From contig OZ038389.1 of the NCBI GenBank assembly GCA_964036045.1, positions 62,758,359-62,822,358 of the forward strand: a stretch of 64,000 bases of DNA, read 5' to 3'. Made by a program: the position numbers and the translations under genes. The notes under the pieces were generated by a model, which saw only the letters and a list, made by a program, of their open reading frames with translations, was not told the DNA's origin and did not search any database. Source of the stretch: Eutreptiella sp. 'Long Island Sound 2002'. Lineage: Eukaryota; Euglenozoa; Euglenophyceae; Eutreptiales; Eutreptiaceae. Below, in pieces: positions 35,231 to 58,723 of this stretch (positions are counted from its first letter, which is position 1; every line of letters begins with the position of its first letter).

Positions 35231-35266
35231 CTTGTCCTGCGCTGTGCAGTGCGCCACTCTCTCTCC

Positions 35267-35297
35267 CTTAGGCGGCTCAAGTTGCATGGTTAAAATG
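35267..35297 (+). repeat. Subterminal inverted repeat, left
   Basis: CTTAGGCGGCTCAAGTTGCA followed by TGGTTAAAATG. Pairs with 58633-58664 read on the other strand with few differences. It lies 37 bases from the left end of the unit. Confidence 0.7.
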
Positions 35298-35613
35298 CGC
35301 CCAAAACTGCCTCTCCGCGGCACCGCGAAAAAAAAGTTCTTTTGGGGGGACCTAAAACACAAGAACCAAAAATCCTGTGAAAAGCAATTAACTGGTCCAT
35401 TTTCATTTATTTTCAAGAAAACCGACTGCCCGGGAAAATGATTTATTTCTCCAAAAATGAAGTACTTTTTTGGGGAGACCACGACTTTTTGTTTCCTCTA
35501 CCACTTATGCTTTGCAATTTAAACACCCATGAGCTTTCAATCTTTTCGAAAACCAGTTTTTGAAAACCATGTTGCACGCAGCACCACAAGAAGCATTTTT
35601 TGGCACCCTTTCC

Positions 35614-35633
35614 TTGCGCGAGGCCTCGCGCAA
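35614..35633. repeat. Palindrome copy 1
   Basis: TTGCGCGAGGCCTCGCGCAA, a perfect 20-bp palindrome, 133 bases beyond the gene 1 stop codon and 384 bases from the left end of the unit. Confidence 0.9.
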
Positions 35634-35721
35634 ACACCAACACAACAGCAAAATAAAATGCATCACAGAGAAAAATGTGCCGCACGAGGTGACGGCAAAA
35701 AGGTCGTCGAAGAGGAATGCA

Positions 35722-35740
35722 TAGCGCGAGCCCTCGCGCA
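35722..35740. repeat. Palindrome copy 2
   Basis: TAGCGCGAGCCCTCGCGCA, with the two central bases not self-complementary. It starts 26 bases beyond the gene 1 stop codon. Confidence 0.85.
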
Positions 35741-35765
35741 TAATATATCACAACAAACGAAGAAA

Positions 35766-38700
35766 TTACTTTTTCTTCGGAACAGTTTGCATCTTAGAAC
35801 CCAGTGCCTTAGCAACGGACGTCTTACCCTTAGGCGGTGGCTTTGCGGGCTCGCTTCTTGGTTGGGACTGACGGGCTGGCTGCTTGAATGGAGCTCGGGC
35901 CCCGGTTTCCTTGGACCTCGGCTTCGCTGCCACTTTCTTCACTGCCTTGCCCTGGGAGACCTCCGGTTCCTCCTCCTCTTCTTCCTCGCTCTCCTCCTCT
36001 TCATCCCCATCGCTCTCGTCGGATTCTGCACCGGTAACCGACTCTGCTGCCTGAGGCTTAGAAGCAGTCTTCTCCTTCTTGGGGGCTGGTTCCCCACCAG
36101 TAGACTTCCGCTTTGCAGGGGCCAGACCTTTCTCAACAGTCTCTTCCTCCTTCAGCGACAACACCTCAGAACCCAACTTGTCATCGCGAACCCAAAGGCG
36201 AATACCACGGTTTGCCCAGTTGGCCTGCTGGTCCCAATCACCAGACGCGCCGAATACCGACCCTTGTGTCAAGACGTGGTTCAACTGAGTCTGCACTCTG
36301 TTGACCCAATCGGAGAGATTGTCGGTGGTGACACCAAGAAGGTACATGCGGGAATCCGGCTCAATGGACGCAATCTTGCACACCAGATGCGGCTGATGAT
36401 CAATGAACACAAACGCAGGCTTGAAGCCCTTATCCTGCTTCAGGTAATGGAGGTGAGTGTCGAAATACTAAAGAAGGTCCGTACCAGGACCGGCCCCTGC
36501 TGTGCCCCTTCCGCCCGTTACCCCTGCTGACTTGCTCCTGATCAGCGATTGCATTCCTCAAAGTCCAGGGTCCAAAATCCAAAAATATAGAAAATAATAT
36601 CCTCCTTCAACCCTGAACAGCAACCAGATCCCACAAATACAGCAATAACCCAATCCACAATCCAATCCACACTGCGGGCTTCCGTTCAGCGCACGGGCCG
36701 TCCCACGGTGGCGGGCATGTACAAGAATTGCACCAAAGAGGAAAGCCCTGAAATTGGCATATGAACACAAATAAAGCAAAGTCGGGGAAAGAGGTAAACA
36801 TACACAGACTCAGTCATAGACCCCTCATTCCCTGGACTCAAGACCTTCCCTTGACTCATCAACATGATGCCCTGAACCAGGTCAAATAGGATGGCTAAAT
36901 GCCGTGTGTCAAAAGTCACTACACAAACCCCAAAAATGTGTTCACTCCCAAGCCTATAAATCCTAGCCCAATGAGGGGGGTGGCGTGTCATGGCCCAGAA
37001 TGGCACTCAGGACCATGCCCTACCCTGACATATACTTGGTTGGACTTGGAGTCGGATGGGCTATGAGATATGCCCCATGAGTTTGAACTCATGACATGCC
37101 AAAAACTGCCAATTCACACCATATTGGCCATATATCAAATATATGCTCAAAATTGAAGTTACTACTTATCCGAAGGCTCGAAGTATGCATGGAGTCGAAG
37201 TCTAGTATTCATGGAGGATAGAGACCAAAGGTCAATGCCCATGTACATCCCCACTTTACCCTCAAAACCCCTTCGGATATGGGCGCCACGCACTGCCCAA
37301 GTCAGCCCATGATCTTGAGACCAATTCTTGTAATCCTTCGTGCGCCAAGCCAAATGGAGTACGCGATCCGGCATATGGTGGTGTTCAACTCCAAAGCATA
37401 TGCCAACATATGAACAACGTACCATGGTTCGACTCTCCATAGGCTTCTTGCTGTTTGCCGACTAGGTAAGTACACAAAACGCAAAAATGAGCAAAAATTG
37501 AGGTCAAAAACATGAAAATATGTCCGAATACAAAGTTGTCATGATAGTATATCTCTATGCTCACCCATGATATCCGCGCATGGGTCAATATACAAATGAT
37601 TAGAACCATTTGCGAACGATTCCCCCACTTGGATCCCCAATCAGGCGCATGGAGATACCTTCGCCACTCATATCTACATGCCCCATGAAAATGGGAGTGC
37701 ACTCATGGATCTCTTTGCCAAACATACCATGAGCAATACATACGCGGTAGACTTAGTCTAGCGCTTTGAATTCCACAATTGGGACATGGGCAAAGCCCTT
37801 GTCACGTGTGGCTCCCCATCTGTTTGGCCACACCAAGATATATAACACGGGTGTGAGCATATCGAAGCACATACCATGCATATAACACATACCCTCCAAA
37901 AGTGGCTCCCACCATGATATGCCATGCCCCTCCATGGACATATCTTCACGTTAAAAATACGTAGGAACCCAAGGAAAGTTTCTATGCAACCCCAACACTC
38001 ATGCGGTACACTCGAAAGTCGCAATAAAATATTCGGTTGCACGGTCGAAGAGTTATATATCACTTTCTACCCTCTTGACCATTATCCCTTGCTATACCGG
38101 GCATGTGTACACACCAAAGGCGTCTGATGCTTCCTAAATTAAGTTGAGACCAAGGCGGTTCCAACCCAATTCTCGAAATTGATATTCCCCGCCGTGAGCC
38201 GGAGATATGATTCTTCAAAGTGGCCTCACGAATCACTTTTGTTTCGATTATATCTCCAAGAAAGATTAAGGGGATAACAAAAGGAAGGTTGATTCGTGAT
38301 CGGGGAAAAATGTCGGACCACTCGAGATTCATCATATCAAGTGCGGCGATGTCGAGGTCGAAAATCCGATTCTGAAAGTCTCAAAAAATCGGATTAATTT
38401 TGCGAGTGTATAATATGAAAATTGCGGAAGCAACGAACCCTTTACTGATGAAATCTAACCCTTCATCGGGATTTCCGCCAAAATATCTGCAAATAACAGT
38501 TAACCAATCAGTTACCGCAAAATCGGGGGCCAACTGACAGTCGCCGATACACTGACAATCAGAACGAAAGGCTGAAAAATTACGTAACACATTATGATAA
38601 AAAAACCCTGTTGATTCCTGATATTCTGATATATAAATCTCCGCTGGCGGCGCCTCGGTACTGAATATGGCCGCTCATAGCTGTAATGGCCAAACCTATC

Positions 38701-41700
38701 ACACTATCACATCGGGTTAGGTCCGGTGGATGGGAGAGTATGATATCAGCCAATGGCGGCTTGCCGGCACATAGATGCACACCCCAAGTGACCCAAAGAT
38801 GGCCACGGGGGTCCGAACCGGCTTCACCCCCCTTCTCAGAGCGTTGTTAACGCTCCGAAGTGATTGAAGAGAGGATGGGAGGACCCCAATGGGCTTCAAA
38901 CCCCCCCCCATGTCCCAAGGACACATGGAGGCCCCACACACGTCCTAGGCGTCCCCCACGCCCCAAGGGAGGGGTGAGGACACTGATAATCGGTGCCCTA
39001 CGCCATATCCGGTCTCCTCTTGGTCTACAACATGGACCAAGGGGATCAAAGATAGAAAAACGTCGTCAGTCGACCTAAATAAGTATACCACAATGAAATA
39101 TGTATGTGGAGATCGAGTGAAGGCAGTATATGGCCAATCAAGGCCGAAAAATCCCCGGCTGAACGCCCTTCCCCGTCTCCCAAGCAGAGAAACAAACAAA
39201 AATGCCAAGGGGGATCCATTACGGTGCTACTGCAGCCACCAAATGGACCAACACGTCCTTGACATCCAAAGAAATGTTCTTTTTCTTCAGATAGTCCATC
39301 CAGACCGTGGTGTACCTCGGCACAAAGCTGCTCGGATGCTCCCACCAATCCCTGGATACGGCGAATCCCTTCCAACAGACTTTATGAAGCCTTCCCCCAG
39401 GCGTCCCCGGGTCCGGCTTGTCCGCCAGGATCTTCTCCGCGGTGAGGTCGTCGTCCTCACCCTCGTCGTCCGAGTCCACATCGCCGGCCGTGAACTCGAA
39501 GGTGACGGGACGTCCGCTGGGGTCTGGTGCTCGGGGACGAAGCTGGGTATGGTCGCGGTCCAGGATCTTGTTATCCCCCAAACGAACCGCATACACATCC
39601 TGCCCGACCTTCCGCACGATTACCCCCGGCACATACCAAGATGCCTGCCGATGCCTGGACAGGACATCCTTGTGGTGCCGCTCCACCGACACGGTGTCTT
39701 GGAGAGCATACTTCTGGACCTTTCCCTGCTTGAAGTACCTGGCCCTCTTGTCATGCTCGTCCTGAAGTGCCTTGCACACCTTGGCCGCCGTGTCGTCCGC
39801 CTCAGCCATCATAGCGTTCGCATCCCGGGCCACTTTGCCATGGTTCAACCACGGGAGAGTGCGTGACACTCGATCCCGTAGGAAGAGGATGCGATGGGGC
39901 GACAGTCCAGTGGGCCCCGGAAGGTTGTGATACGCTTGGAGTACTCTCCACAGCGAATTATACCAATTCCGGCCCGGTTCGTCGATGTGCAGCTGGCGGA
40001 ACTTCTCGAACATCTGCCGCCCGGCCACCTCAGCTCGGCCATTCGACCGGCTGTGGTACGCCACGGTCTTGGCGTGCCGAATCCCCATGTGCTTGCATAT
40101 CGTCTTGAACCACGTTCCCACAAATTGACTGCCCCGATCGCTGCAGATGACAGCTGGGACATCAAAAATCGTCAGCCAATGCCTGATCATGGCATTAGCG
40201 ACGGTCTTGGCCTGCAGCCCCACTCCATGCTTGTCCTTCTTGTCCTACTTCTTGGACTTCTTGCCAGGAACCGCCACGATATATCCGCTGTGCCTATCCA
40301 CCGCCAGGATGACACAGTCATAGGTCTCTCCTTCCACAGTGACGTCAGGCATGGCGAATACATCCATGGCAACGGACCGCATAAGGGCCTCCGGTATAGC
40401 CGTATACACCGGGTTGCCAGCCGTGGAGTGATTGGGCCTCTTCGTGGCCCGACACACGGCGCAGTCGCTGCAGTACTTGTCCAGGAGGGCGTAGTACCCC
40501 GGTGGGAACTTGAAGCGCCACTCCAGGTCCTGCTGCATCTTGTCCCGACCAGGATGCATGAGCTGGGCGTTATGCCAGTGGTCAATGAGCTCCTCCATTC
40601 GGTTTTCAGGGACCAATAGCTTGTCCTTGAGGAACAATTTGTCTCCATCCTCGGTCAAGCCCTCGGGCCATTCGTCGTCCGACGGGGCGCTCACGGCATT
40701 CCAGTACTTGCTCCAGTGCTCCGATGCCGCATAGTCATCCGACCAGTCCTCTGTGAGCACCGACCTGACTAGCTCTACAGGGGCCACCATCCATTGCTCG
40801 AGGGTTTCCTCTCGAATAGCTTGGACGCGGGCGCCCCGGAACTTGGCCAGGTCCGTACGTTTTGCCATCACCACAAAGCACTTGACCCCCTCTTGCTCCA
40901 TGGCCTTCTCCATCTCGATGATGCGCTTGGCCTCCTCGGTCTCCTCGGCGTCCCCATGGCTGGATATGTCCATCCAAGCCTTGCCCGCGGGGTAGGCCCA
41001 TGGACTGAGGCAATCTGCCACAGTGTTGTCCTTCCCCGGGACATACACGACGCTGAGGTCGAACTTGGCGAACGTCTCGTGCCACCGGGCCCTCCTTGCC
41101 GCCGGTCCCGAGGGGGTGTCGACGTGCGCCTTGTGCCAGCTCTGCAAGGACTGATGGTCCGTACAAACCACCACCGGTTGCAATCCGATGTGGCCAGACC
41201 ACTTCCTGAGCGCACAAACAATGGCGTACGTCTCCTTCTCCCTCGCGGTCCAGGTTCAACGTTGGCCCTCGGCCAGGATCCGGCTCCAAAACGCCACGGG
41301 TACGTGCGACCTGTCGTCCCGGACCTGCTCGAGGACTGCACCTACAGCATAGTCCGAGGCATCCGTTCGTAGCACGAATCCCTTGTCTGGGTCAACCAGG
41401 AACAGCCCCAGCTGCCCCAGGAGTCGCTCCTTCAGGCGGCTGAACGCATCTTCGGCCTCAGGGGTCCAGGCAAGCTTCTTCTTGCTCCCCTTCCGGCCAT
41501 CGAACTTCCCCACCTGCAGCATCTTGTGCAGCGGCCCCGAGAGTTCTGCATACATCCGGACGTAGCCCGAATAGTAATTGCAGAACCCCATGAAGGACCG
41601 GAGTTCCCTGATGGTCTGGGGTCTCTCCCAGTGGTTCAGGGACGCCAGTTTCCCAGGCATGGGACGGCGTTGCCCGTGGCCAACCACGTGACCCGCGAAC

Positions 41701-44700
41701 TCCACTTCCTTCACGAAGAGTGAGGCTTTGGTGGGCTTGCACACCATGTTGTGCTTGTCCAGCTCGCTGAGCATCCGGCGCAGATCCTTCTCATGCGCTT
41801 CAATGAGCTCGTCCTCAGTCATGTTCTCCGTGCCGGACCCGATGATGATGTCATCCACAAAGGGGTCGGCACAGTCCCGGACAGGACCGAGTAGGTCCTC
41901 CATCATGCGCTGGAAAGCGGCGTTGCCATTCTTGGCGCCCAAAGGCACCACTTTTCACTGCATGGGCCCCAGCGGCGTCGACATCGCTGTGCAGGGCCTG
42001 GAGTCCGGGTGTAGCGGCATCTGGTGATCGCCGTGTTTCAGGTCTAACACCGTGAAAATCCGCTTCTTCTGTTGTTTTTGGAGGATGTAGTCGATCAGGG
42101 GAAGCGAGTACGAGTCGTGCTCGGTCTGCTCGTTCAAACCTCTGTAATCCACCAGCAACCTCCACTCGCCCTTCTCCTTCTTGGGCACGATGAAGGCTGG
42201 GCTGGCCCACTCACTGTCGGAGGGTCCGATCCATCCCCGCTCAATGAACTCGGCCAACAGCTTCTTCATGGCCTCGGCCCGATCGCCCTGGAGTTGGTAC
42301 TCCTGATGACGATAGGTCTTGGGCTTCGGCTTCAGCTTGATCCTCGCTGTGCCAAACCTCCCACGATCTGGAGGGTTCTTGTTGGCGACGCCACTGAATA
42401 GCCGCGGATAGGCATTGATCAGCCTCTCCTTCAGCTCGGCGACCTTCGGGTTCTCCTGGGCCCCTTCAGCCGCTTGCTTCGGTATCGATACAACCGACCG
42501 CACTGCGGTATAGGCCTCTTCCGGGTCCGAATTGGACTTCTCCCCGTCCGATATGCCGTCTTCATCGTCGTGGGGTGCACTTCCCACCGATAGTCTTCGG
42601 AAATTTGCGGCGTCGGGCTGGTTACTGTCGCTATCGGCCCCCATTCTTGGAAAATCCCATGTCGGCGGGTCCGACCCAACCGGACCGTCGTATTGGTCCG
42701 CGATGTGATCCATGATTCTCGCCACGAACTCATCCTTCTCGTACTTGCCGGTGACCAACATCTTGTCATCCCACCAATGCGGAGATGTGACCATGGCCCG
42801 CCTCTTCTTGGCTGCCACACGGTCGTGCATCCCCATCCGCATGTAGTTGACGACGTTGTCGATTTCGGCGTGGGACAGGACGTCAATGCCATCAATTGGC
42901 TGATCCGTCCCCTCCCTGGGCTCAAACATGACCTTCATGGGCACCGCCTCCACCCTACGGATGAACGCTTCATCACCCGTGGGCTGGGCTTGTGCCCCAT
43001 CCACCAGGTAAGCCCTGGTGCCCCACGCTTGACCCGGGGAGGGCATTGATACACCCTTGGCGTGGATGAACAACTCCTCTTCTGGCCCGAATGACATCTC
43101 GTTCAGGGTGATGGAGTACAGCATCGACTTGAGACCCTCCAGCGGACATGGGGTGGATCCTATGCCGGTTATGACCAGGATCCCCTTCGCCCTATCCGCG
43201 ACGATCTTCTCCACCGTACGTCTGGTATTGTCCAGGGAGCCATGCCAATACATGGGCCCCCTCTCCTTCAAACCCCAATGCCTGTGCCAGGCTGAGTCTC
43301 CTCGATGCCAATGCCTCCTACACTTCCGCAAAAGTGGGGCATCCCGGGAAGCGAAGACGTCCGTCTCGGGCGCTTCGGCTCCCAGCGTCTGGATCATCCT
43401 GTCATACACCTGCGGCGCCATTCCATACTCCGTGAGCTGAACTCCACGGTCTCCTCTGGACTTGGCACCCACAGCTTGCACCGCTTGGATGATCGGATCC
43501 TCTTCCTCAGCATACCATTGGGATGATCCGCATGCATAGTCCGTGGACAGCCATGTGAGGCATTCATCATTCTCCCGGACCAGCGTTGCACGATGGGGAA
43601 GGGCTCCAATGGCGTTTGCCACCATGAAGTCATACCCCATGATCATATCCCATTCTGTAATGTCGGCCACATAGAAGTTCCCGGATAGAGTGCTTCTCTT
43701 CGCCAGATCAGGGCGGTTCAAGCGCTCATGTTCCCAGAATTCCATACTGATGGTGGCCTCATGGGTTCTGCCACCCATAATCTCTCTGTTGGCGACCTTC
43801 AGGCGGACCGGTCTCCGGCTGGGCTGCAGGGATTCCTCCTTGAACAACCCTCTCCGGACCAGGCTCACCTGGGCACCCGTATCCACCAACACATCCACCA
43901 CCTTCTCCTCTCGTCCGCACCGTACTCGCACTTTCAAGTGCAACTGCCGCTCGTCGCCATGAGGTGTATGGACGACTCTCACGGCATGCAACTCTAGCAC
44001 GTCCGGGTGCATCAGAACTTCAAGGGTATGGTCACGGATGGTGTAGATCTTGGGCTGGTCCTGCCCGTCCACGGGGCTCTCCTTGGTCGCTCCTTCCTTC
44101 TTGCCATGTCCCGTACCCACATGTACCTCCCTTGGCAGGGCGCTCCAGGGGTTGGGAGTGGCGAAACTCAGTGGTTTTGGCTCTTCCAGAGCCTTCTTTG
44201 GCACTCGATGTGCCTTTGCTTTCTCTGAGATTCCACCGATTTTCGGAGGAGAGACCTCCGAGGTCCCACTCCCATGGGGGCTCCTCTAGACTTGACTTCC
44301 CGCAGCCCCTTCCGGCTGCGATCCGCCATGACTTTGTCCACCACGTTGCTGGGCTTTGAGTTCCTCCAACGTCCTCAACATGTCCTCAGCAACCTCCTCG
44401 ATCGACCTCACTCGTCGGTCTTGGCCAGGTCCACCACCATAGCCTCTTCCTCCGCCTTTCCCTTGGCCTTTGCCTTGGCCTTTTCCCCCGTCTCCGCCCT
44501 TCGCCTTCCAATCGGCAATCTGCTGCACCTTGGGCTTCTTCTCGGGGTGGGCGGCGAAGTAGGCCTTCTTGTCCGCCTCATACACCTTGTACTGACGGTG
44601 GTCATGTGCATGGTTGTTTCCCTTGCCATAACAGACCCAGCACCCGTCGTGCTGAGACCTGTACTCCCGGAACGAGAGCGGTGGGTTCCCGATCCTCCTT

Positions 44701-47700: not shown

Positions 47701-50700
47701 AAGTCACTACACAAACCCCAAAAATGTGTTCACTCCCAAGCCTATAAATCCTAGCCCAATGAGGGAGGTGGCGTGTCATGGCCTAGAATGGCACTCAGGA
47801 CCATGCCCTACCCTGACATATACTTGGTTGGACTTGGAGTCGAATGGGCTTAGAGATATGCCCCATGAGTTTGAACTCATGACATGCCAAAAACTGCCAA
47901 TTCACACCATATTGGCCATATATCAAATATATGCTCAAAATTGAAGTTACTACTTATCCAAAGGCTCAAAGTATGCATGGAATGGAAGTCTAGTATTCAT
48001 GGAGGATAGAGACCAAAGGTCAATGCCCATGTACATCCCCACTTTACCCTCGAAACCCCTTCAGATATGGGCGCCACGCACTGCCCAAGTCAGCCCATGA
48101 TCTTGAGACCAATTCTTGTAATCCTTCGTGCGCCAAGCCAAATGGAGTACGCAATCCGGCATATGGTGGTGTTCAACTCCAAAGCATATGCCAACATATG
48201 AACAACATACCATGGTTCGACTCTCCATAGGCTTCTTGCTGTTTGCCGACCAGGTAAGTACACAAAACGCAAAAATGAGCAAAAATTGAGGTCAAAAACA
48301 TGAAAATATGTCCGAATACAAAGTTGTCATGATAGTATATTTCTATGCTCACCCATGATATCCGCGCATGGTTCAATATACAAATGATTAGAACCATTTG
48401 CGAACAATACCCCCACTTGGATCCCCAATCGGGCGCATGGAGATACCTTCGCCACTCATATCTACATGCCCCATGAAAATGGGAGTGCACTCATGGATCT
48501 CTTTGCCAAACATACCATGAGCAATACATACGCGGTAGACTTAGTCTAGCGCTTTGAATTCCACAATTGGGACACGGGCAAAGCCCTTGTCACGTGTGGC
48601 TCCCCATCTCCTTGGCCACACGAAGATATATAACATGGGCGTGAGCATATCGAAGCACATACCATGCATATAACACATACCCTCCAAAAGTGGCTCCCTC
48701 CATGATATGCCATGCCCCTCCATGGACATATCTTCACGTTCAAAATACGTAGGAACCCAAGGAAAGTTTCTATGCAACCCCAACACTCATGCGGTACACT
48801 CGAAAGTCGCAATAAAATATTCGGTTGCACGGTCCAAGAGTTGTATATCACTTTCTACCCTCTTGACCATTATCCCTTGCTATACCCGGCATGTGTACAC
48901 ACCAAAGGCGTTTGATGCTTCCTAAATTAAGTTGAGACCAAGGCGGTTCCAACCCAATTCTCGAAATTGATATTCCCTGCCGTGAGCTGGAGATATGATT
49001 CTTCAAAGTGGCCTCACGAATCACTTTTGTTTCGACTATATCTCCAAGAAAAATTAAGGGGATAACAAAAGGAAGGTTGATTCGTGATCGGGGAAAAATG
49101 TCGGACCACTCGAGATTCATCATATCAAGTGCGGCGATGTCGAAGTCGAAAATCCGATTCTGAAAGTCTGAAAAAATCGGATTAAGTTTGCGAGTGTATA
49201 ATATGAAAATTGCGGAAGCAATGAACCCTTTACTGATGAAATCTAACCCTTCATCGGGGTTTCCGCCAAAATATCTGCAAATAACAGTTAACCAATCGGT
49301 TACCGCAAAATCGCGAGCCAACTGACAGTCGCCGATACACTGACAATCAGAACGAAAGGCTGAAAAATTACGTAACACATTGTGATAAAAAAACGCTGTA
49401 GATTCCTGATATTCTGATATATAAATCTCCGCTGGCGGCGCCTCGGTACTGAATATGGCCGCTCATAGCTGTAATGGCCAAACCTATCACACTATCACTT
49501 CGGGTTAGGTCTGGTGGATGGGAGAGTATGATATCAGCCAATGGCGGCTTGCCGGCACATAGATACACACCCCAAGTGACCCAAAGATGGCCACGGGGGT
49601 CCGAACCGGCTTCAATACCACATAACCGTCGTTATCGGAAGGTGACCGCCAAATTCAGCAGGATCCATCTCCGCTACTTGAGTAGGTCCAAACGTCAGAT
49701 AATTCGGAATCTGCAAAGAGGGAGAAGTTATTTCGCGAGGCCTCGCGCAAAGAGCGGACATAATGGGGGAATTATACCTTTCTCTTCCAGCTATCTGGTG
49801 ACGAAATCAGCAACCAGCAAACGTCGAACGTTGTAGGATCCCCTGCAGGCTTCGGTTTGACTGGCCAACTGAAGATGGGAACACGCAACATGTTAGCCAT
49901 GCGCGGCGCGCTGAAACATCGTTGAGACGCCTCTCTGTTTCCGTTTCCAGCACGTCAAACATGTTGTCAACAACAGTTTGAGAGCCGCAGATAAGGGTAT
50001 CGGCATGCGCCATCTCTTCATACCGCCACGCTGGGCACATCATCTCAGGAGCAAGATGTTCAAATATGTCACCGTTGATGACAATCAGGTTCTTGTCAAT
50101 CTCAATGAACCGCCTCGGGGGATCGTGGGCCAAAGCTGCAATTCGGGTCGCCTGAATTGTGATAGTTTGACTTGCCAGTAATGGATCCTGCTGTTCCACT
50201 GTCTTGAAGTCACCAGTAACGCCAGCAGCTGGGGGGACCACACGGCTCTTGGTAGGCTCCTGACCCAGGAGCTTTTGGACGTTGAGGATTTTCAGCGAGG
50301 CGGGTTTGCCTTTCTCTGCCACCTGCCACAGTGGTGCGCGAAGCATGGATTTCCATGCCGGCCATGGACCGCGACTTTTGCCTTCAGACTCACGCCAATA
50401 GCCCCATGTACCAAGAGTCACCTTCAGGGCAGGCCTTCCAAGTGCAGCAACCTCTTTGCGGGTGCGCATGTCCTTGGCTAAAGAACAGAAATGGAGAAAG
50501 TGCAGCGCACCAATGCAGAAACGGAACCCACGTCTCGTCGATGGTACACACCTTTCTCAGGTCGAGCGTACTGGCCGTTGTGCGGGTGGTCCAGATGCAT
50601 TGAGACCCACTGGTCAAGGATGATGTCGTCAAACAAATTCTGCAAGGATTTAAGGGTTGTTTTTTCTTCCTGCATCACTTCTGCCAGTTTCTTGTAGAAG

Positions 50701-53700
50701 TCCGGCAAGAGGATCCCTTCCAGTTTCCTCAGCGCGTTCTTTGTGACTTTCTCCCCTTTGTCGTGGAACTTCTGCAGACCTTTCACAGCTTCCGGACCAG
50801 CATAGTAGGGAAACGTCATGAAATCTTTCCACAATTTATATGTTTTGTCCTGAAAGTGACAACGTTATGCGCGAGGCCTCGCACAACGAAGAGCATCGAA
50901 ACAACGATTAATGAACATACGAATTGACCAGGCTGCTTCAGTTCAGCGGTTGGAACCAGGGCACTCATCTGCACAGCATCCACAATGGCGATCTTGAGAT
51001 TGCTGTACGTGTCAGCCAGGCCTCGCCGCCGCTGATCTTCAACACATCGAATGAGGTTATCTGCTGCCTCATACAGCGGTATTGGCTCAACGTCTTGTGC
51101 GCTTCCTTGTGCTTGTTTCGCAAGCTTTGCACGGAAGGCCCACGGTGTCGTAGGCTTCAGAATATCGGCGATGCATGTAGTATGCCACTGCTGCAGATCC
51201 AGACATGCTGTGCGTCGCTTCTCCCGAATCTTCGCAATCGCTTCCACGCTGTGCTGTCCAGATACACACCAAAAATCGCCATCTGCAAATATGAGACACG
51301 TCTATGCGCGAGGGCTCGCGCAACGAGAAGAGGTTTGAGGTTTGAGGTTTGATTTTGCGGGTACTAGACGCCTTTCGGCCCCGGGGGGCCACCTGGTCGG
51401 GCCAGGTGATATCCTCCCCACCGGGTCCTAGTGGGGGGCCCTCCAAGACGCACCTCCTGCCTGGTGGCGGAGTCCCCCGGGTTCACAGAGCTCGGAGCCC
51501 CGTCCTTCCCCGGCGTCCCCGTTTCGCCACTCCCCGGTCAGTGCATCAATTCGCAGCCGTGGCTGCGGGCGCTTACCCTCTGCGTCGCCCCCCTAATGCG
51601 TGGTCGCCCGGGGCGCCGGCGCCGCCGGGCCCGTGCTACTGGCTTGTCGCCAGTGGGACCCCCTTGGGCTGGCGCGGAGGCTGCCTAGCCTAGGGGTTGG
51701 GGCGTGGCGCTGTGCGCCACTACTGCCTTGGCGGGTGCAGTGTCCCGTCTGTGTGTGCGCGGCGCTCACGGCCGGTTCGGGGGGGCTCGGGCCGGTACCT
51801 GGTGTTGTGTCTCCCCTTCTTCCCCCTTCCCGCCCCGCGTGTTCCGCGCTGCGTGTGGCGGGCTGTCCCTTCCGGGTGTCCCTTATCCTCGCTCGCTGGT
51901 ACGCCATTCCATGCGGTCTGTGCGTTCCGCGCGCTCGGTCCGGTTGCCCTTCTGGTGGTCCCCGCGTGTCTTTTTCGTGTGTGTGCGCTCGCGCTCTCGC
52001 GGTGTCCGCTACCCGCTGGGTGGTGTGGCGCGCGCATCTCGCGTGGTCCCGGCACTGGGCGCTAGTAGGGCCGTTCCATGTGGTCCGTGCCCCTCCGCGT
52101 GTCCTGCCCCGGTCCCGTGCTCCGTCTGGCGTGCTTGGGGGGGGGCGGTCCGGTCCCGGTTCCCCCCTACTTGGCTTGGGGTTGTGGGGGCGGCGGCAGG
52201 GCGTCCCCGGGGGGGTGCCTTCGACCGTTGCGTGGGGCGTTCAGGGTCTTGCGCTCCTCTTCCCCCGACTGCCCGTCCACTGGGTGGGCTGTCGGGGTCT
52301 GCGTTGTGGGCGCGGGCGTGCGGTTATGGGGGTCCCGCTCTGTTCCTGTGGGGGGGGAGAGAGGTGTCGACTTGGTGTCCAGGCGCCGGTCCGCCGGATT
52401 CCCATGACAAGCCCGATGCGCACGGAGCTTCGCTCTGCGGGATGCGTGGGGGGGTTTGGGTGACCGTGGCTGGAGTGGTGCACCAATGTTCCGGTTCATG
52501 GCCCAGCAGAGCACCCCTACCGCGGGCTTACTCTTAGCACAGGGGGAGGGGTTTGCGGGCGCGTTTGTTCTGTGACCCGGGTGCCAGTGTATCTCAGAAG
52601 GCAGCCGCCCCGGAGGTAGCGCACCCGGCGCGCGCCGCGAAGGAGCTGGTTCGAACCCCGTGATCGGTGGTCTCCCACCGATCCCTTCGAATACCGGACG
52701 AGGCCTCCCGTCGACCTGTTCAAGTACAGGTGACGGTGCGCACTGCTGCAGGGGTGGGTGGCTCCCATGTGTTTTGTTTTTCTAGGGTGGGGGGTAAAAC
52801 GAACGAGACCGGTAAAACGAACGAGACCTCCACCCGATCCACCGGTATCAGTGGTGGCGCGAGTTGCTGGAGGGGGGGGTGGTTCCCACATCGCCAACTA
52901 GAGAGCTCTACGTGCAGGGATCCCAGGAGCACCAACGCCTGGGATCGAACCCCCGCACTGGACGATTGAAGACCGACGCTCTCACTACTGGGCCGAGGGA
53001 GTCTCTTACGCGACTTAGGGGTGTCGTCGGCTATGAATCCAGTCCTGAGGGTGGGGCTGTGCGTTGTGAAGCGTGTTGCGCGTGCCGGGAGGCCCCAGTC
53101 CACGTGCACGGGGTCAGGACAGGGGGGGAGGGGGCTGGGTGGGGTGCGGCACCGTCGGATCGCCGACTGACGTGCACAGGGGTAAGAGGCGGACAGTAGC
53201 ACCGCCGGATCGCCGACTGACTGTAGGGCGGGGGGTCGCTCTGCCTCTTTCCGTCCCTCTGCCTTCCCTGGGCAGGCAACAAAGCGGGCGTCACTGGCGT
53301 TGTGCTGTTAATGGGGGGCGTGGCCCCCCATACCACTCCGGTTCGTGCTCACCCGGCTTCTCTGGGTACGATCTGTGCGGCGTCCCGGTGCGCAGGCGTG
53401 GGCCCGCTTGTTCTTCGCGGCCCCATGTGAGCCGGCGGCTGGAGCGGGGGGGCGGGTCACACTCCGGCTCCCCTCTCGGGTGGGGGGGGCCCATCCCCCC
53501 TGCCTCGGGGGGGGTGTCGCGCCGCGGCCTCCCTGCTCTCGTTCCGGGCGGCGGCCTGCGGTACCCCTTTCTGGCTCTCTCCGTGTCGCTGGCGCGCTCC
53601 CTTCCGGCGCGCGCGTGCGGTCGGGGCTGAAGTGCCGCCCCGGGGTGGGGGGGGGTGAGGGGCGGCCCGTGGACCGCTCCCCTGGGGGCCCCAGCTGACC

Positions 53701-55555
53701 TGCATACCCCCCCTCTGTCCCCTCGGAGTGGGCTGTGGTTACGGGAGGGTCATGCGTGGCGCGGCCTCCTCCGTGTTCCGTTGTGCGCGTCGCTCCGGCA
53801 CGCCGGTGTGGGTTCGCGGGAGCAGGTCCAGCCGCCGTTGCCCTTACCGTGTCGCCGTTCCTCCTGTGGGTGGGGGCGCCCCCCCGGCCCTGGGGGGGCG
53901 GAGGGCCGCGCCTGTGGCTCCCCAGCTGGGGTGGGTGCGGGGGGGGGGGGGGGGGGGGCCCCCGCCCGCTCTCGGGCCTGTGTGGGAGGGGGGGGGGGAG
54001 TGGGGGGGGGCCTTTGGCCCCCTGGCGATGCCTCCTGTCGGCCAAGGGGGGGGGGGGGCGGCTTGGCAGTCCTGGCCCCGGGGGCCAGCCATCGGCCAGG
54101 GGGGTCGCGCCCTTCCCCCGCCCCCCTCTACTGAGAGCCGGATTCTCACGCAGTCCCTCTCTGGGGCCCCTCATCCCCCGGCCGTTGTCGCGCGGCGCTG
54201 GCCGGCCGGGGGTGGCCGTGAGGGTTAGCGGTCAGTGGTTAGCGGGTTGCGGGGCAGCAGGTTTCCCCCCGCGCTTGTTGTCTCCGCACTCCCTCCCGCG
54301 GGAGGTGGCGCGCCGCTTTCCCTGGGTAGGCAACAAAGCGGGCGTCACTGGCGTCGTGCTGTCCATGGGGGGTGTGGCCCCCCATACCATTCCGGTTCGC
54401 GCCCACCCGGCTTCTCTGGGCACGATCTGCGCGGCGTCCCGGTGCGCAGGCGTGGGCCCACTTGTTCTTCGCGGCCCCCATTTGAGCCGGCGGCTGGCAC
54501 GGGGGGGCGGGTCACACTCCGGCTCCCCTCTCGGGCGGGGGGGGTCCATCCCCCCTGCCTCGGGGGGTGGGGCCGGGGCCCCCGCGGCTGGCGGGCCGGT
54601 GGGGGGGCGGGGGGGGGGGGGGGTGTCGCGCCGCGGCCTCCCTGCTCTCGTTCCGGGCGGCGGCCTGCGGTACTCCTTTCTGGCTCTCTCCGTGTCGCCG
54701 GCGCGCTCCCTTCCGGCGCGCGCGTGCGGTCGGGACTGAAGTGCCGCCCCGGGGTGGGGGGGGTGAGGGGCGGCCCGTGGACCGCCCCCCTGGGGGCCCC
54801 ATCTGACTTGAAACCCCCCCTCTGTCACCTCGGAGTGGGCTGTGGTTACGGGAGGGTCATGTGGGGCGCGGCCTCCTTCCTGTTCCGTTGTGCGCGTTGC
54901 TCCGGCACGCCGGTGTGGGTTCGCGGGAGCAGGTCCAGCCGCCGTTGCCCTTATCGCGTCGCCGTTCCTCCTGAGGGGGGGGCGCCCCCCTGGCCCTGGG
55001 GGGGCGGAGGGCCGCGCCTGTGGCTCCCCTGCTGTGGTGGGTGCGGGGGGGGGGGGGGTGGGGGGGCCGCCCCCCCGCCCGCCCTCGGGTCTGTGCGGGG
55101 GGGGGGTGGGTTGGGGGGGGCCCTTTGGTCCTTTGGCGATGCCTCTCGTCGGCCGGGGGGGAGGGGCGGGGGCGGCATGGCGGTCCTGGCCCCGAGAAGA
55201 GCGAACAGTCGGTTGGCAACATACTATTATCTTCCCAGAGAACGACGTGTAATGGGCCTGTTGGCGGTGCTGCTTCGAGTGACTCAATACGCTTCTGCAG
55301 TAACTTCGTATCTTTCCGTCTGATCTGTCCCTTTGTCTTCTCCTGGTACATTCTCACGTTGTCCAGCTCAACCTCCACCTGCCTCCCATCCGGCTTCAAG
55401 TGGTCCTCAATGTCAGTACCCAAGGTTAGGCCAGGATCTGGTGTTTCCTTCCTCTTCCGCCCCTTCTTTCGTGTTCCAGCCTCCGATCCTGAGGTCCCAG
55501 GGTCATAGTCGGTATCTTCCCGTTCCTCGGCTGTTTTTTTGGCGGGGCTTGCCAT
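35766..55555 (-). CDS. Gene 1 of the DNA transposon: ParB/DGQHR-like protein, disrupted by a retrotransposon
   Basis: At least six exons: 55555-55225, 51282-50921, 50849-50552, 50477 to about 49961, about 49910-49778, and a last exon split by the family D element into 49710-49615 and 36464-35766. About 810 residues. The start ATG follows ATCGCAGA, a likely trans- or cis-splice acceptor. The N-terminus is basic and acidic. Across the first splice junction the protein reads ...VVLWEDN then NGDFWCVSGQHSVEAI, resembling the GQHR/GERR motif of ParB/Srx or DGQHR proteins, though the Arg after His is Ser. The C-terminus has a long Glu/Asp run followed by a Lys/Pro-rich tail, as in nuclear proteins. 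Exons 4 and 5 are in different frames; a 50-nt intron (49911-49960) or a frameshift would explain this. Function unknown; a DNA- or chromatin-binding accessory protein is my guess. Confidence 0.6.
36465..36468. repeat. 4-bp target duplication of element D, left copy
   Basis: ATAC, repeated at 49615-49618. On the coding strand it is GTAT within the codons TGG TAT of gene 1. Confidence 0.8.
36469..38826 (-). repeat. 3' LTR of element D
   Basis: 2,358 bp, beginning TGAAGCCGGTTCGG and ending TTCTTTA on the minus strand. Scattered single-base differences from the 5' LTR, for example at 36479, 36688 and 37054. Non-coding. Confidence 0.92.
38827..38837 (-). other. Polypurine tract of element D
   Basis: The minus strand reads GAGAAGGGGGG, ending at the first base of the 3' LTR (TGAAGCC). 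Confidence 0.75.
39219..44285 (-). pseudogene. pol: pol polyprotein of element D, three in-frame stops
   Basis: One frame from the gag stop to 39219. Motifs in order: protease LVDTGAQVSLV (about 43890); reverse transcriptase EWRLLVDYRGLNEQ, then ADPFVDDIIIGSG with intact catalytic FVDD (about 41870-41830); RNase H FVLRTDASDYAVGAVLEQ; zinc-binding H-H-C-C (about 40560-40450); integrase D (MDVFAMPD), D (CSDRGSQF) and E (NGRAEVAGRQ); a chromodomain-like tail with KVCWKGFAVSRDWW (about 39370). Stops: TGA at 41955 where family C has Trp; TGA at 41256 where C has Arg; TAG at 40245. The first two are explained by single C:G to T:A changes, and the third may be as well. The element cannot make a full Pol now, although every domain is otherwise open. 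Confidence 0.88.
44286..44288 (-). promoter_or_regulatory. gag/pol in-frame UAG (UAG-AGG), probable readthrough site
   Basis: Gag ends GGA AGT CAA GTC TAG AGG AGC. The pol frame continues without a shift: 84 bases, 28 codons, separate this stop from the GTG codon at 44204. It is at the position equivalent to the UAG of family C. Confidence 0.65.
44286..47342 (-). CDS. gag: gag of element D
   Basis: The open frame begins with an ATG at 47342, inside the 5' LTR, and runs through the primer site; a more conventional start is the ATG at 47087 (MEDLVSMCERRC). N-terminal region low-complexity, then a coiled coil (about 46470-46310, AERDMAELRAERDRYRENLE and following), a capsid-like part (about 45700-45050) and a nucleocapsid with CWVCYGKGNNHAHDH (about 44650). 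The last Cys of the knuckle in family C is replaced here by a Tyr-containing sequence, so metal binding may be altered. It ends in a Gly/Lys-rich stretch. Intact over its whole length despite the broken pol. Confidence 0.85.
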   Translation of the reverse strand: MQLLIRSKSAGVTGGRGTAGAGPGRDLLYGSRGVPAAPTYRRPGDLGPYEPCPSTPRVRIVDSVETTPKVEAQREVRRSGRGGLDMEDLVSMCERRCRKACNLRSAAEDSEETCHSGSSGGRARRYRKRGSPKPAAGDAGAMDTDPSPVRLWDSEGHSEGYRTAYEQPSKSEETARPPTRANTAPEPSLEHDPDALERPARARTAPVARHTEPTRDSMGDTPMAEESEAPGTAGCAGSGGKHAECHCEHVSFLMGKYPKMGMDAMVHRLDSLDNAKDGLEEDVAGILDDQSAAERDMAELRAERDRYRENLELALQKQQRVVDSLLHLVEDMSGRLKKLEERQPLDSGPELPAKPAAAELVERVKTLRSAMDKPMGGPAEAPYAPPRVDPGALPFVPMFSESTMLGEHTAPAASMREGQVTTDPRSLTVQMSHAAQDLPITTTQAVYAEEEIQSQTMQGRTMRSADGHCRGHPGGNLWAKDPNTGIWTADGASPSRIPNPMGSGPTGPHSMEERDVRGVYSHPPATGGIRLGGVVAGDVGDAIRIDDLRGIKIPYYDGNPSNLDDFILDWEDFAEEVVGEMRGAPRDKWVCRTFPHRLAQDLKGELRDQIREGLIRTEQACLQWLEDEERVDAPNQKLEDLWSIPLPLDRGELRVREWNRYLRKYRRSLKLFEDWNESSEIRHLLKDVLPGHWKRKVEDEEKKRAKKRVAVRIMAAEDTHAGIMEFFRRNLGEPNRMLGLKNAVYVEVFGDTMGQRLMRLNNMEWRRGELLKMQVIFARMSLDEIVKYITVELKLNAKNEAHVQDRQGHGQRGHREDRHHREIQEDTATSAEDGSGSGQDHWSQEDHEEAHFFAFVAHNVRDHGQDRSRWSRVGPKKGKEPRRIGNPPLSFREYRSQHDGCWVCYGKGNNHAHDHRQYKVYEADKKAYFAAHPEKKPKVQQIADWKAKGGDGGKGQGKGQGKGGGRGYGGGPGQDRRVRSIEEVAEDMLRTLEELKAQQRGGQSHGGSQPEGAAGSQV
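47245..47256 (-). other. Primer binding site of element D
   Basis: The minus strand reads TGGTAGCAGAGG directly after the 5' LTR, a perfect complement to the 3' end of initiator tRNA-Met. Confidence 0.85.
47257..49614 (-). repeat. 5' LTR of element D
   Basis: 2,358 bp copy of 36469-38826. Its right end (CGGCTTCA) is followed by the ATAC duplication and then gene 1 exon sequence. Confidence 0.92.
49615..49618. repeat. 4-bp target duplication of element D, right copy
   Basis: ATAC, matching 36465-36468. Removing the element and one copy restores an open frame across the junction of gene 1. Confidence 0.8.
49711..49777 (-). other. Gene 1 intron, 67 nt
   Basis: Begins GTATAA and ends TTTGCAG on the minus strand, joining ...WKRK to IPNYLTFG in frame. 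Contains palindrome copy 3, which ends 20-23 nt before the acceptor. Confidence 0.75.
49734..49750. repeat. Palindrome copy 3, intronic
   Basis: CGCGAGGCCTCGCGCAA; the outer base pair on one side has decayed (TTCGCGAGG). Confidence 0.85.
50478..50551 (-). other. Gene 1 intron, 74 nt, without palindrome
   Basis: GTGTGT to CTTTAG on the minus strand, joining ...YARPEK and the following KDMRTRKEV through a split Ala codon. It is the one well-supported intron without the palindrome. Confidence 0.7.
50850..50920 (-). other. Gene 1 intron, 71 nt
   Basis: GTATGT to TTTCAG on the minus strand, joining ...KQPGQF to DKTYKLWKDF in frame. Contains palindrome copy 4. Confidence 0.85.
50868..50885. repeat. 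Palindrome copy 4, intronic
   Basis: TGCGCGAGGCCTCGCACA, one base pair broken, 18 nt upstream of the 3' splice site. Confidence 0.85.
51305..51322. repeat. Palindrome copy 5, intronic
   Basis: TGCGCGAGGGCTCGCGCA, centre pair altered, 22 nt upstream of the 3' splice site. Confidence 0.85.
52576..52665 (+). other. tRNA-like fragment in the GC-rich insert
   Basis: GGTAGCGCACCCGG upstream of GGTTCGAACCCC resembles a tRNA D-arm and T-arm (the B box is near perfect). Stems elsewhere do not close well. Confidence 0.3.
52913..53007 (-). other. tRNA-like sequence in the GC-rich insert
   Basis: The minus strand has CGGCCCAGTAGTGAGAGCG, a loop TCTTCAA (a TTC anticodon if real) and GGGGGTTCGATCCCAGG. 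The T-stem and acceptor stem are imperfect, so this is more likely a tRNA-derived repeat than a gene. Confidence 0.35.
53267..54079 (+). repeat. Tandem duplication unit 1 in the GC-rich insert
   Basis: Starts TTCCCTGGGCAGGCAACAAA and runs to CCTGGCCCC. It recurs at 54324-55193, about 1,057 bases later, with substitutions and length changes in the G runs. Confidence 0.75.
54324..55193 (+). repeat. Tandem duplication unit 2 in the GC-rich insert
   Basis: Starts TTCCCTGGGTAGGCAACAAA. It has an extra GGGGCCGGGGCCCCCGCGG segment near 54570 that is missing in unit 1. Confidence 0.75.
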
Positions 55556-55716: not shown

Positions 55717-55736
55717 TTGCGCAAGGCCTCGCGCAA
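55717..55736. repeat. Palindrome copy 6
   Basis: TTGCGCAAGGCCTCGCGCAA, one altered pair, between gene 2 and gene 1. Confidence 0.85.
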
Positions 55737-55772
55737 GGGAGGGGGTGTACTAACCTGTTGTTTAATGCTGTT

Positions 55773-55790
55773 TGTGCGAGGCCTCGCGCA
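55773..55790. repeat. Palindrome copy 7
   Basis: TGTGCGAGGCCTCGCGCA, directly adjoining the gene 2 stop codon at 55791-55793. Confidence 0.85.
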
Positions 55791-58150
55791 TCACTGCATG
55801 TCCTCCAATCTTCTTCGAACGTTTCGCAGCGTGTTGGCCTCTCTCTGTTCCTCCAACACACTGCGTTGAGGGATCAGCTCCGACAGTTTTCGCTTAAAAC
55901 CAGCCTTAAGCGGCCCGTGCTGCATCAGCACCAACAACACAGACACAAGGACTTGTTTGTAGTGGTTAGAACCCTTCGGAATTAGAAGAAATGGTGGAAA
56001 GTTAGGTACACCCCTGCGCGGCCAATGCGCCTGAATTATACAAGTAGGCTCAGCACACCACCCAACCCAAGGCACATATACACGCTCTGCGTTCAAGTAA
56101 GCAGTTAACCGCTGACGCACGGGATTGACAAAGGAATTGGGGATTTTGCAGACGTTCACCCTGTGACCTTCTTTGCGGATAATGATGAGATGATACAGAT
56201 CGTCAACATCTTCAATGGTTACTGCACCTCTGTTTTGGCCCTTCTTTGTCACAAGGCTGGAAAGCAGACTTTCACAAAACTCCTCGGCAAAAGCCTGTCC
56301 AGGCATGGCTGTGTGCCATGCAGTGTGGCACAATGACGCAGTTGCAACAGTGCGTTCGTACTTTAAAAGTGTGTCCCCCATGTTCAAACGGTCTAACAGA
56401 CAAATACCGATCTGCAATCCCTCAGAAGCAAAAACACCCGTGTTGGCCGTCTCCCCGGCCCAATTGCACTGTATAACGAGGTGTCCTAGGTATAGTAACA
56501 TAGGACAGTATTGTGTTAACAGAACCTGCATGGCCTTACACACAGCGTAACGGAGGCAGCCTCGCCGATTTACAGGACGTGCCAGCCCAAGGGAATGACA
56601 TTTTCTGTTGAGGCGGCGTATGTGGGGGCCCATACCCAACAGCAGTGCGCCAACAGTTATCTCCATTGTGATCAGCTTGGGAAAACAGGGGACTCTGTCA
56701 CCGCTGCGCAACAAACCTTTAGGGAAGAAAGTCACAATCGGCCAAAATGAGCGAAATGTTTGTGTAACGCAAAACTTGTACGCGTGCCAGAAACCATACA
56801 ATATAGGGTGTGACCGCAAGAAAAGCCGGACATTCCAACCCGTTGTTTTTTCACCGTACATCATCTTACAAATGCGGTAATGGATCTTCTCATCACATAA
56901 AACAGGCACAACTGGTCGAGTGTGCTGCGCCAAGTCCCTAGTGAATTGCAATAGGTTAAGCAGTGAGACGTTGCCGCTCACCTTTTCTTTGCTTAGACAA
57001 TAGGGTCGCCAATGTGGTCTCTTGGCAGGTACAGGGCGAATAATGTCAAGCGGCGCCTAATGTTTCGTACAACAGGTCGCGTGCTTGTAAATCCTAGATC
57101 ACGCAGGATACGTGCAAACGTTCCCTCGGTGTTCCCCAGGATGGGTGCAACAACAGGAACACGTCGTTCAAGCTCTTCCAGGCTAGGATGACCATGCCAG
57201 TAGGGTGGTGCATCCCTCAGTAGCAAAACAGCCAACGCTGTTGCGTTAAGGCTTTTGTCGTTCTTGTCAGGATTTGTGATAAACTGTTTGTTGTACCAGG
57301 TGTCCATCCATAACACAACCCACTGCTGGTGTATTTTGTTCCATGTAGTCTGTAACCTGACTGCGGCCTTCTCCTTCAGCGAAGGTGCGCTATATCGCGC
57401 CAGACCTGACCTTGCTAAAATGCGATGCTGCGCCCTACTTCCCTCTATCGCAACGACTGACTTCGGTTTTCCCTGGTATGGAACTGCGCGGTGGCGCATC
57501 AGCAAATAAAGGCGCCACGCCTCCTCTATCAAAACACCAACCCATCTCTTGCCTTCTGCCGCAATCGCCTTTTCAACGCTGCAACGCGTCCGTTAATTTT
57601 TGCGGAGACGCAGAAAAAACACAAACAACAATCGGGCTCCCTCGTCTTCCTGTTTTAGCCCTTCCCACAATTCTTCTGCCGTGTGATACGGCGGTTCCTC
57701 TGAGCAGACATCACGGAAAACTGCAGATGCTGCGGCCACTGTCTTCTCAAGGTCCACCTCTTTTCGCAGGGGCATTGTTGCTGTGAAAAATAATTGAGTA
57801 ACTGTATCTGCGTAAAAGTCGCTGTTTCAAAAACTTTCTTGATTTGAAACATCAACCTGTCACACAGTTTTCGCGCGACCAATTATTCTCTGATTCGCTT
57901 GTCGCATGCACCATTTTCGGTTAACTGTAACTATCTGGTGATCCCACATTTGACTGGTTAATCCTGGTTGCGGTAGCCAGTTGCGGCGCGCTACCATCGC
58001 TGCTGGGCAGTGAAGCCAGCGGTGACCACAGTATGAAAACTGGAGATGCGGGCGGGACCTGTGTGGGCGCCCATGCAGCAGCGCCGCATCAAGGGAATGC
58101 ACATGCTGTGTAGTTGGTGTATCTGTTCCATTTTTGGTTTCTTTGAGCGC
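55791..58150 (-). CDS. Gene 2 of the DNA transposon: candidate RNase H-fold transposase
   Basis: Several exons or frame changes. Coding-like segments: about 58150-57870 (with a Cys/His cluster FSYCGHRWLHC), 57775 to about 57605 (EVDLEKTVAAASAVF), about 57590-56995 and 57000-55791. The third segment has WVVLWMDTWYNKQF followed by DKSLNATALAVL; the fourth has VPVLCDEKIHYRICKMMYG and HPILYGFWHAYKFC. Conserved-looking Asp residues after hydrophobic strands, followed by a His-rich stretch, recall RNase H-like transposases and DUF6589-type proteins, but I cannot name a family. Segments three and four overlap in different frames around 57000-57075, so a short intron or a one-base shift lies there. 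Its position beside gene 1 within duplicated target ends makes a transposase the best guess. Confidence 0.5.
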
Positions 58151-58162
58151 TTATGAGATCCA

Positions 58163-58182
58163 TTGCGCGAGGCCTCGCGCAA
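58163..58182. repeat. Palindrome copy 8
   Basis: TTGCGCGAGGCCTCGCGCAA, perfect, just upstream of the first coding-like segment of gene 2 and a possible acceptor (CTCATAAG). Confidence 0.9.
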
Positions 58183-58221
58183 CGATCACCGAAACTTTAA
58201 TGTTTCTCATGCGCCGCTCCA

Positions 58222-58239
58222 TGCGCGAGGCCTCGCGCT
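58222..58239. repeat. Palindrome copy 9
   Basis: TGCGCGAGGCCTCGCGCT, upstream of gene 2. Confidence 0.9.
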
Positions 58240-58447
58240 TGAAACTACAATTTGTTCCGGAACATTTATACTTTTCAAATTTCCTGGGTACACAATTGTT
58301 GAACTTTTTTCGTTAATAGATCCATCTCTATCACTCCATCCTGATAATGGTACAAAGTTACGTGTATAAATACGACAGGGTTCTATTTTCCGACAACCTG
58401 CCTAATGCGTTGTACTGTAGTACATTAATCCGACACAAATGAACGTC

Positions 58448-58469
58448 TTTGCGCGAGGCCTCGCGCAAA
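58448..58469. repeat. Palindrome copy 10
   Basis: TTTGCGCGAGGCCTCGCGCA followed by AA, the longest copy (22-bp perfect palindrome), 254 bases from the right end of the unit. Confidence 0.9.
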
Positions 58470-58632
58470 GAATAGTCCCAAAACAATACTTTTCCCCGTG
58501 TCGCCCATGGGACACGGCATTCTTATAGAAATTTTTATTTCGCTATACTTGTTTGCGACGGTTTAGACGTGTCCATCAAAACAACTATTTTCTTCTGCCT
58601 TTTGAAACCTGTCATTTTCCTACCTTTTCTGT

Positions 58633-58664
58633 CATTTTTGACCATGCATTTTGAGCCGCCTAAG
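58633..58664 (-). repeat. Subterminal inverted repeat, right
   Basis: The plus strand reads CATTTTTGACCATGCATTTT then GAGCCGCCTAAG, the inverse of 35267-35297. It is about 59 bases from the right end, against 37 on the left. Confidence 0.7.
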
Positions 58665-58723
58665 TCTCCTCTTTCTGCAGAAAACAAGACAAGGAAAGCA
58701 TGCATGACACACAGTGCATTAAT

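Follow-up and report, generated by a model that had tools for sequence, protein, structure and literature searches.

A 64,000-nt stretch of the Eutreptiella sp. 'Long Island Sound 2002' genome (contig OZ038389.1; hereafter the window) contains, between positions 35267 and 58664, a unit with two genes and ten copies of a 16-bp palindrome. The locus raises the question of what kind of element this is and what the palindromes are for. The reading preferred here, at a rough probability of 0.66, is that the unit is a euglenid DNA transposon of unassigned superfamily, and that its palindromes would be cis-acting sites for a protein of the element, serving transposition, anti-silencing or both.

The limits of the element were set by comparison with its other copies (family A) in the 2.28-Gb genome (2205 contigs). 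The DNA search with gene 1 scored the best 40 of 1407 first-look candidates, the window among them, and the 39 other scored matches were 95–96% identical. Twenty-nine copies were fetched beside the window, and eight of these were completed leftward. Similarity to the window was lost at 58663–58667 in 26 of the 29; L016 and L029 lost it earlier and L012 at 58672. Because the similarity of the copies stops where the inverted repeat ends, the repeat is terminal. It occupies 35267–35295 (forward strand, beginning CTTAGGCGGCTCAAGTTGCATGG) and 58636–58664 (reverse strand), the element reads CTTAG...CTAAG, and the 5-bp target-site duplication TCTCC stands on either side (35262–35266 and 58665–58669). 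Family A ends carry CTTAGGCGGCTCAAGTTGCATGGTCAAA at both sides, with few changes in single copies. Both ends were present in six of the eight left-completed copies (in L010 and L013 the left end did not lie within the stretch fetched), and perfect 5-bp duplications were found in all six (TCATG, ACATG, ATTTA, TACTA, ACAAC and TCGCC). The uninterrupted element measures 6371–6397 bp in these six complete copies. The first base of the duplication was A or T in 27 of the 28 right flanks obtained from the 30 copies (L016 and L029 lack a right end), flanks that are not all independent because L008, L010 and L031 share theirs, as do L013, L020 and L025; both trios are probably segmental duplicates. 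The second trio has a common flank and the duplication AAAGG, with a second end nearby in inverted or direct order, an arrangement that suggests duplicated host segments or nested insertions.

An earlier note, made from the letters of the window, had placed the ends at 35231 and 58723 and had taken the 8-bp CGCTTAGG found there as the duplication of the element. It had named the ends of other copies as the check on this, and the outcome went against its coordinates, for the other copies and the inverted repeat place the ends at 35267 and 58664. CGCTTAGG was rejected as the element's own duplication on three observations: the ends of the copies, their 5-bp duplications, and the repetition of CGCTTAGG in the window, where it occurs five times versus 1.23 expected (five was reached by 1 of 100 shuffles). 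A related repeat of the host holds one of these occurrences, at 61536, and lacks the roughly 90 bp of host sequence that lies between the element and CGCTTAGG on its two sides (35223–35266 and 58665–58731). The element may therefore have landed in a small, older insertion bordered by CGCTTAGG as its 8-bp duplication, or in a variant of the repeat that differs in length. The other structural observations of the note held: both genes lie on the minus strand, an inverted repeat is found close to each end, two insertions came later, and the same family E host sequence stands on either side.

With up to two mismatches allowed, the palindrome occurs ten times in the window versus 0.03 expected, and none of 100 shuffles reached ten. 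All ten copies are inside the element. They lie in its 3' region (35616–35631), 3' of gene 2 (35724–35739, with the centre GCCC), in gene 2 introns 4 (49733–49748), 2 (50869–50884) and 1 (51306–51321, with the centre GGGC), between the genes (55719–55734 and 55774–55789) and upstream of gene 1 (58165–58180, 58223–58238 and 58451–58466, the L008 counterpart of the last standing 198 bp inside the right end). In the uninterrupted copy L008 no palindrome falls in an exon: gene 1 has three on its upstream side, the intergenic stretch has two, gene 2 introns 1, 2 and 4 have one each, and the downstream region has two; those in the introns stand 19–23 nt before the 3' splice site. Five of the six complete family A copies have ten corresponding palindrome places, and L011 has nine.

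A second autonomous family, B, shares this layout. Its gene 1 (P0137) matches the family A protein P0001 at 51% over residues 60–360, and at 46% in A1, an alignment of 23 gene 1 family sequences. Among the best 68 scored of 8465 candidates in the P0137 search, 65 had no internal stop and 48 shared one score. Since so many matches share a score and two full copies (L047 and L048) are 99.87% identical across 6.86 kb, family B appears to be extremely young, the product of a recent burst. Its ends read CTTAGCCCACGCAAACTGCACC, with the duplications TCAAC and AGAGT in L047 and L048; the third stretch, L049, matches over 3.3 kb only and has five palindromes. Gene 2 of L047 encodes 881 residues on the same five-exon plan as family A, and 293 of 817 aligned residues (36%) are identical. 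Between A and B, blastn at E ≤ 1e-3 gave only matches that lie within gene 1 or include a palindrome, the longest of the latter spanning 77 columns at the intergenic pair. L047 contains ten palindromes, all outside exons, including introns 2, 3 and 4. The intron without a palindrome is thus intron 3 in A and intron 1 in B, and the total is ten in both; in each family, three palindromes precede a 3' splice site by 19–42 nt. The chance that random placement would leave ten of ten outside exons is 6e-6 for A (30% noncoding) and 1e-5 for B (32% noncoding). The ends of the two families differ past CTTAG, and the palindrome core is the same.

Two further families keep the ends and the palindromes without the genes, which argues for the palindromes as cis-acting sites. 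Family C (L050 and L051, 93.6% identical; 1710 bp in L050) has A-type ends, the duplications ACTTA and TCAAA and four palindromes with A-type flanks, and no open reading frame longer than 140 residues was found inside the L050 element. It resembles A in short pieces, none longer than 76 bp and most of them at the ends and palindromes. Family D (L138, 1212 bp) has B-type ends, the last base of the right end being changed, the duplication AAGGA and three palindromes with B-type flanks; no open reading frame exceeds 113 residues, and matches to B are at most 42 bp. L052 derives from an A-like subfamily (80% identity); it has a large internal deletion, and six palindromes in the stretch fetched. 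Inverted repeats together with a duplication of fixed length, the marks of a class II terminal-inverted-repeat element, were found in families A, B, C and D as well as in the window copy. In A, B and C a palindrome lies at a similar distance from one end (198, 199 and 208 bp).

The two letters on each side of the palindrome follow the family, as judged from the copies fetched. Family B palindromes read GTGCGCGAG...CTCGCGCAC at all ten sites in L047 and L048, a form found at none in L008 or the window. GT...AC flanks occur at 10/10 sites in B and 3/3 in D, and at 0/10 in A and 0/4 in C (Fisher 5e-8 by position); WT...AW flanks occur at 8/10 sites in L008, at 4/4 in C and at none in B and D. In further copies, GT...AC was present at 15 of 16 B sites (the exception, in L001, affects one side) and at 0 of 10 A sites.

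Exact palindromes number 11,014 genome-wide, and the reversed-pattern control gave 0. The first 50 of these sites cover the first 9.5 Mb and form 15 clusters on contig C1. At least one stretch was read in each cluster, and these were assigned to A (5), A-like (1), B (6), C (2) and D (1). Thirty-four of the 50 sites were read and all 34 fell within alignments of at least 100 bp to A, B, C or D, a figure in which C and D include their own defining loci and beside which the other 16 sites were placed by spacing only. The earlier note had described the palindromes as confined to this one unit; that description stands for the window, but across the genome the palindrome marks no fewer than two autonomous families and two non-autonomous ones. 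The finding that it thought would speak against it, palindromes equally frequent in unrelated host genes, was not obtained at the sites read.

Gene 1, a putative DDE-type transposase, lies at 55791–57776 on the minus strand and encodes 661 residues; it is open in P0001 and L008 and interrupted by frame breaks and stops in the window. P0001 matched no Pfam family at E ≤ 10, and 23 members of the gene 1 family matched no transposase family at E ≤ 1. No model matched among the Pfam-modelled transposase superfamilies (hAT, MULE, PIF/Harbinger, KDZ, CACTA and others). For the element's proteins, NCBIfam gave no match above cut-off and the search for relatives of solved structure gave weak matches only (E 0.11 or worse); for gene 1, the profile search against the PDB gave none, and phage records and viral contigs held no relatives. 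In alignment A1, D158-N159, D295-x-N297, H299 and H331-x-x-K334 are kept in 23/23 sequences; seventeen rows have a residue at position 502, and in 16 of them it is the acidic E502. The three conserved acidic residues D158, D295 and E502 form a DDE-like pattern with a presumed catalytic role. Between the second D and the last E, CxxC occurs in 1 of 15 gene 1 sequences; H(3-4)H occurs in 12 of 15 (as WHAYKH in eight and elsewhere in four) and is absent in three. Relatives of about 30% identity were seen on contigs of 1.4–9 kb from other sources (for example P0153, P0155 and P0159), and the gene 1 transposase family extends outside this genome.

Gene 2, also on the minus strand, encodes 833 residues in five exons, with introns of 67–74 nt bounded by GT-AG (one GC donor, in L006). 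Under this splice model L007 and L008 have an open reading frame, and the four other complete copies a broken one. The exon coordinates in the window were mapped arithmetically from L008: exon 1 at 55225–55555, exon 2 at 50922–51283, exon 3 at 50553–50850, exon 4 at 49778–50478, and exon 5 at 35766–49710, its letters (about 35766–36468 and 49614–49710) being split by a long terminal repeat (LTR) retrotransposon. A homologue search gave two partial relatives only, among the 8000 candidates sharing most words. By eye the N-terminus resembles ParB (GQIR, GPL, WED, GQH). The ParB-parS system likewise uses a 16-bp palindromic site in several copies. Kinship of gene 2 with ParB was not supported, as hhalign and hmmsearch with 80 bacterial ParB sequences did no better than shuffles, a comparison of weak power with two gene 2 sequences.

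The word "unclassified" in the earlier note proved true for each library and family signature compared, and the group is read here as a candidate new superfamily of DNA transposons. CACTA/EnSpm elements have the TnpA-TnpD gene pair and subterminal repeats, and resemble the present ones in having two genes, short repeated motifs and non-autonomous derivatives that keep ends and motifs. The wider CMCT group (CACTA, Mirage, Chapaev, Transib, Plavaka) is described in excerpts of PMC12730594 as having mostly CA..TG termini, target-site duplications of 2–5 bp, a C(2)C motif and an H(3-4)H motif; the 5-bp duplication fits, and the CTTAG..CTAAG termini and the CxxC count of 1/15 do not. The KDZ superfamily (Zisupton, Dileera and Kyakuja) likewise comprises eukaryotic DNA transposons, often with an extra gene, and the same excerpts give duplications of 8 bp for Zisupton and Dileera and 7 bp for Kyakuja (PMC12730594). 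It was set aside on the 5-bp duplication in every copy with both ends and on the lack of a Pfam match. Of the named DNA transposons, we found only Merlin reported from Euglena; for E. gracilis, excerpts speak of transposases "distributed in abundance", the family unstated (PMC12455990), and of unclassified repeat amounting to 32.7% of the genome in the one published chromosome-level assembly (PMC11252322). Papers on transposons with 5-bp duplications and on Euglena DNA transposons yielded no such element, Repbase and Dfam lying outside this comparison and possibly listing the family. When the A end, the palindrome and the 12 letters of its core were looked for in the text of 5.39 million papers, a single paper, on an unrelated bacterial topic, contained the 12-letter core and neither of the others.

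The closest working analogue would be the VANC/VANDAL system of Arabidopsis, where the VANDAL21 transposase is Mutator-like. A family-specific motif limited to noncoding element DNA, as in a VANC-type system, was found here. Excerpts of PMC5735166 and PMC10398659 describe a short motif repeated in noncoding DNA and introns, with family variants and a second element protein as its reader, features that are seen or proposed here too. According to the same excerpts, however, the motif (YAGTATTAY) is non-palindromic and expands in tandem, and VANC binding and anti-silencing have been shown, while the present case comes from sequence only (PMC5735166, PMC10398659).

In the mechanism that we propose, gene 1 would act as a DDE-type transposase that cuts and pastes the element at its inverted repeats, and the palindromes would be bound as dyads by a protein of the element, more likely that of gene 2, which would read them together with the two flanking letters. 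Such a protein would mark DNA of its own family, and correctly tagged elements would be mobilised, kept from silent chromatin, or both. That a protein reads the palindrome is something we infer from its presence with either type of end, its absence from exons, its family-dependent flanks and its survival in gene-less copies. Two proteins probably do two jobs, gene 1 at the ends and gene 2 at the palindrome, since the A and B ends differ past CTTAG and the core is constant. The earlier note had likewise pictured a two-gene transposon with palindromes that one of its proteins recognises. Copy structure, duplications, the second family and the short derivatives uphold that picture, its ends and 8-bp duplication have been replaced, and the binding itself is a deduction.

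Sequence constraint on the palindromes speaks for this reading in part. Across 28 family A copies, four palindromes diverge at 32 of 1778 letters versus 640 of 22491 in other noncoding DNA (Fisher p 0.008), and at non-CpG letters at 9 of 889 versus 565 of 20314 (p 6e-4), p values that are optimistic because related copies are counted as independent. Coding divergence in the same copies was 180/6322 at CpG and 844/51498 at non-CpG letters. Besides that dependence among copies, several points tell against the reading. Of the four palindromes compared, the intergenic one differs at 16 of 448 letters, a rate not below that of noncoding DNA. Five of the ten A palindromes sit over 1.3 kb inside the element, which is unusual for pure transposase sites. 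Gene 2 gave no Pfam match above cut-off and no recognised DNA-binding domain; which of the two proteins binds the palindrome is a guess, and the DDE fold of gene 1 is a presumed one. For family B, gene 2 is known from L047, as the full set of splice markers was not recovered in L048, and family D is known from one copy.

Narrower accounts of the palindromes compete with this broad reading. They may be accessory sites that join the ends in transposition and have no role in silencing, a possible account but a doubtful one. CACTA subterminal repeats, bound by TnpA, offer a precedent, and the gene-less families C and D retain palindromes, with the end-proximal ones at like distances in A, B and C; yet palindromes also occur in introns and in the middle, 1.3–3.5 kb from the ends, where end-pairing needs none. 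About equally tentative is the proposal that gene 2, as an analogue of VANC, binds the noncoding palindromes and blocks or removes silent chromatin, which would leave the genes of autonomous copies expressed and tagged copies accessible. The layout is like that of VANC motifs in the excerpted descriptions (noncoding only, in introns and upstream, with family variants and an extra protein; PMC5735166, PMC10398659), and the palindrome-free intron differs between A and B while the total stays at ten. Against this, gene-less copies would benefit just indirectly, and the tandem expansion of VANC motifs given in the excerpt of PMC5735166 is not seen here. Gene-less copies fit a chromatin role and end-pairing alike, and because palindromes occur in introns and in the element middle, a VANC-like chromatin role is favoured over end-pairing alone.

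Improbable by comparison is a host DNA-binding protein whose sites the elements captured as promoter or insulator. A fixed reader would explain the identical core in two families with divergent proteins, but all 34 exact sites read among the 50 were in elements and none outside, and the flanks co-vary with the element family, not with the host. Least credible of all are RNA hairpins acting in the transcript (in splicing, 3' end formation or escape from small RNAs), for although the GCCC and GGGC centres would, by our reasoning, break the DNA dyad and still fit a hairpin loop, and three palindromes per family lie close upstream of 3' splice sites, both families have an intron without one, and a different intron, C and D keep palindromes without genes, and the flanks do not always pair (A...A and T...T at 2 of the 10 L008 sites).

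The most specific form of the preferred reading, cis-acting sites for an element protein, is a speculative one that we hold to be rather unlikely in all its parts: a new superfamily with a self-recognition code, in which gene 2 would read the 16-bp palindrome plus two family-specific flanking letters across the noncoding parts and thereby control which elements, gene-less ones included, escape silencing and move. If true, sequence-specific anti-silencing would have arisen here separately from VANC. A large, recently active group of euglenid DNA transposons in any case gains defined ends, genes and cis-sites, and since the palindrome and its family-specific flanks occur in autonomous and non-autonomous families, two of each, kin recognition among transposons becomes directly testable with purified proteins.

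The window copy itself is in three pieces: 35267–36468 (93.0% identity to L008 1–1216), 49614–51332 (96.1% to L008 1214–2933) and 55194–58664 (95.3% to L008 2925–6397). Between the first two, at 36469–49613, the LTR retrotransposon interrupts gene 2 exon 5; its LTRs (36469–38826 and 47257–49614) are 97.6% identical, and its duplication, by eye, is AATAC. Between the second and third, at 51333–55193, gene 2 intron 1 contains a 3.86-kb GC-rich insertion (about 65–70% in the middle) flanked by the 8-bp GAGAAGAG. It has GTTTGAG repeats at its start and, by eye, a block resembling a tRNA and a long repeat in its interior; ARAGORN found no tRNA in it.

The genome also has 3283 exact matches (1601 and 1682 by strand; reversed control 0) to a 24-letter sequence that we take to be the Euglena spliced leader, and no exact match to the dinoflagellate spliced leader; on these results the host was taken as a euglenid, not a dinoflagellate. 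The first 100 sites listed on C1 are scattered, with one close pair, and the scattered copies were possibly carried along by retroposition. In Euglena the spliced leader lies near a 5S rRNA gene, and at the one locus read (L144) a 5S rRNA gene was found about 0.5 kb away.

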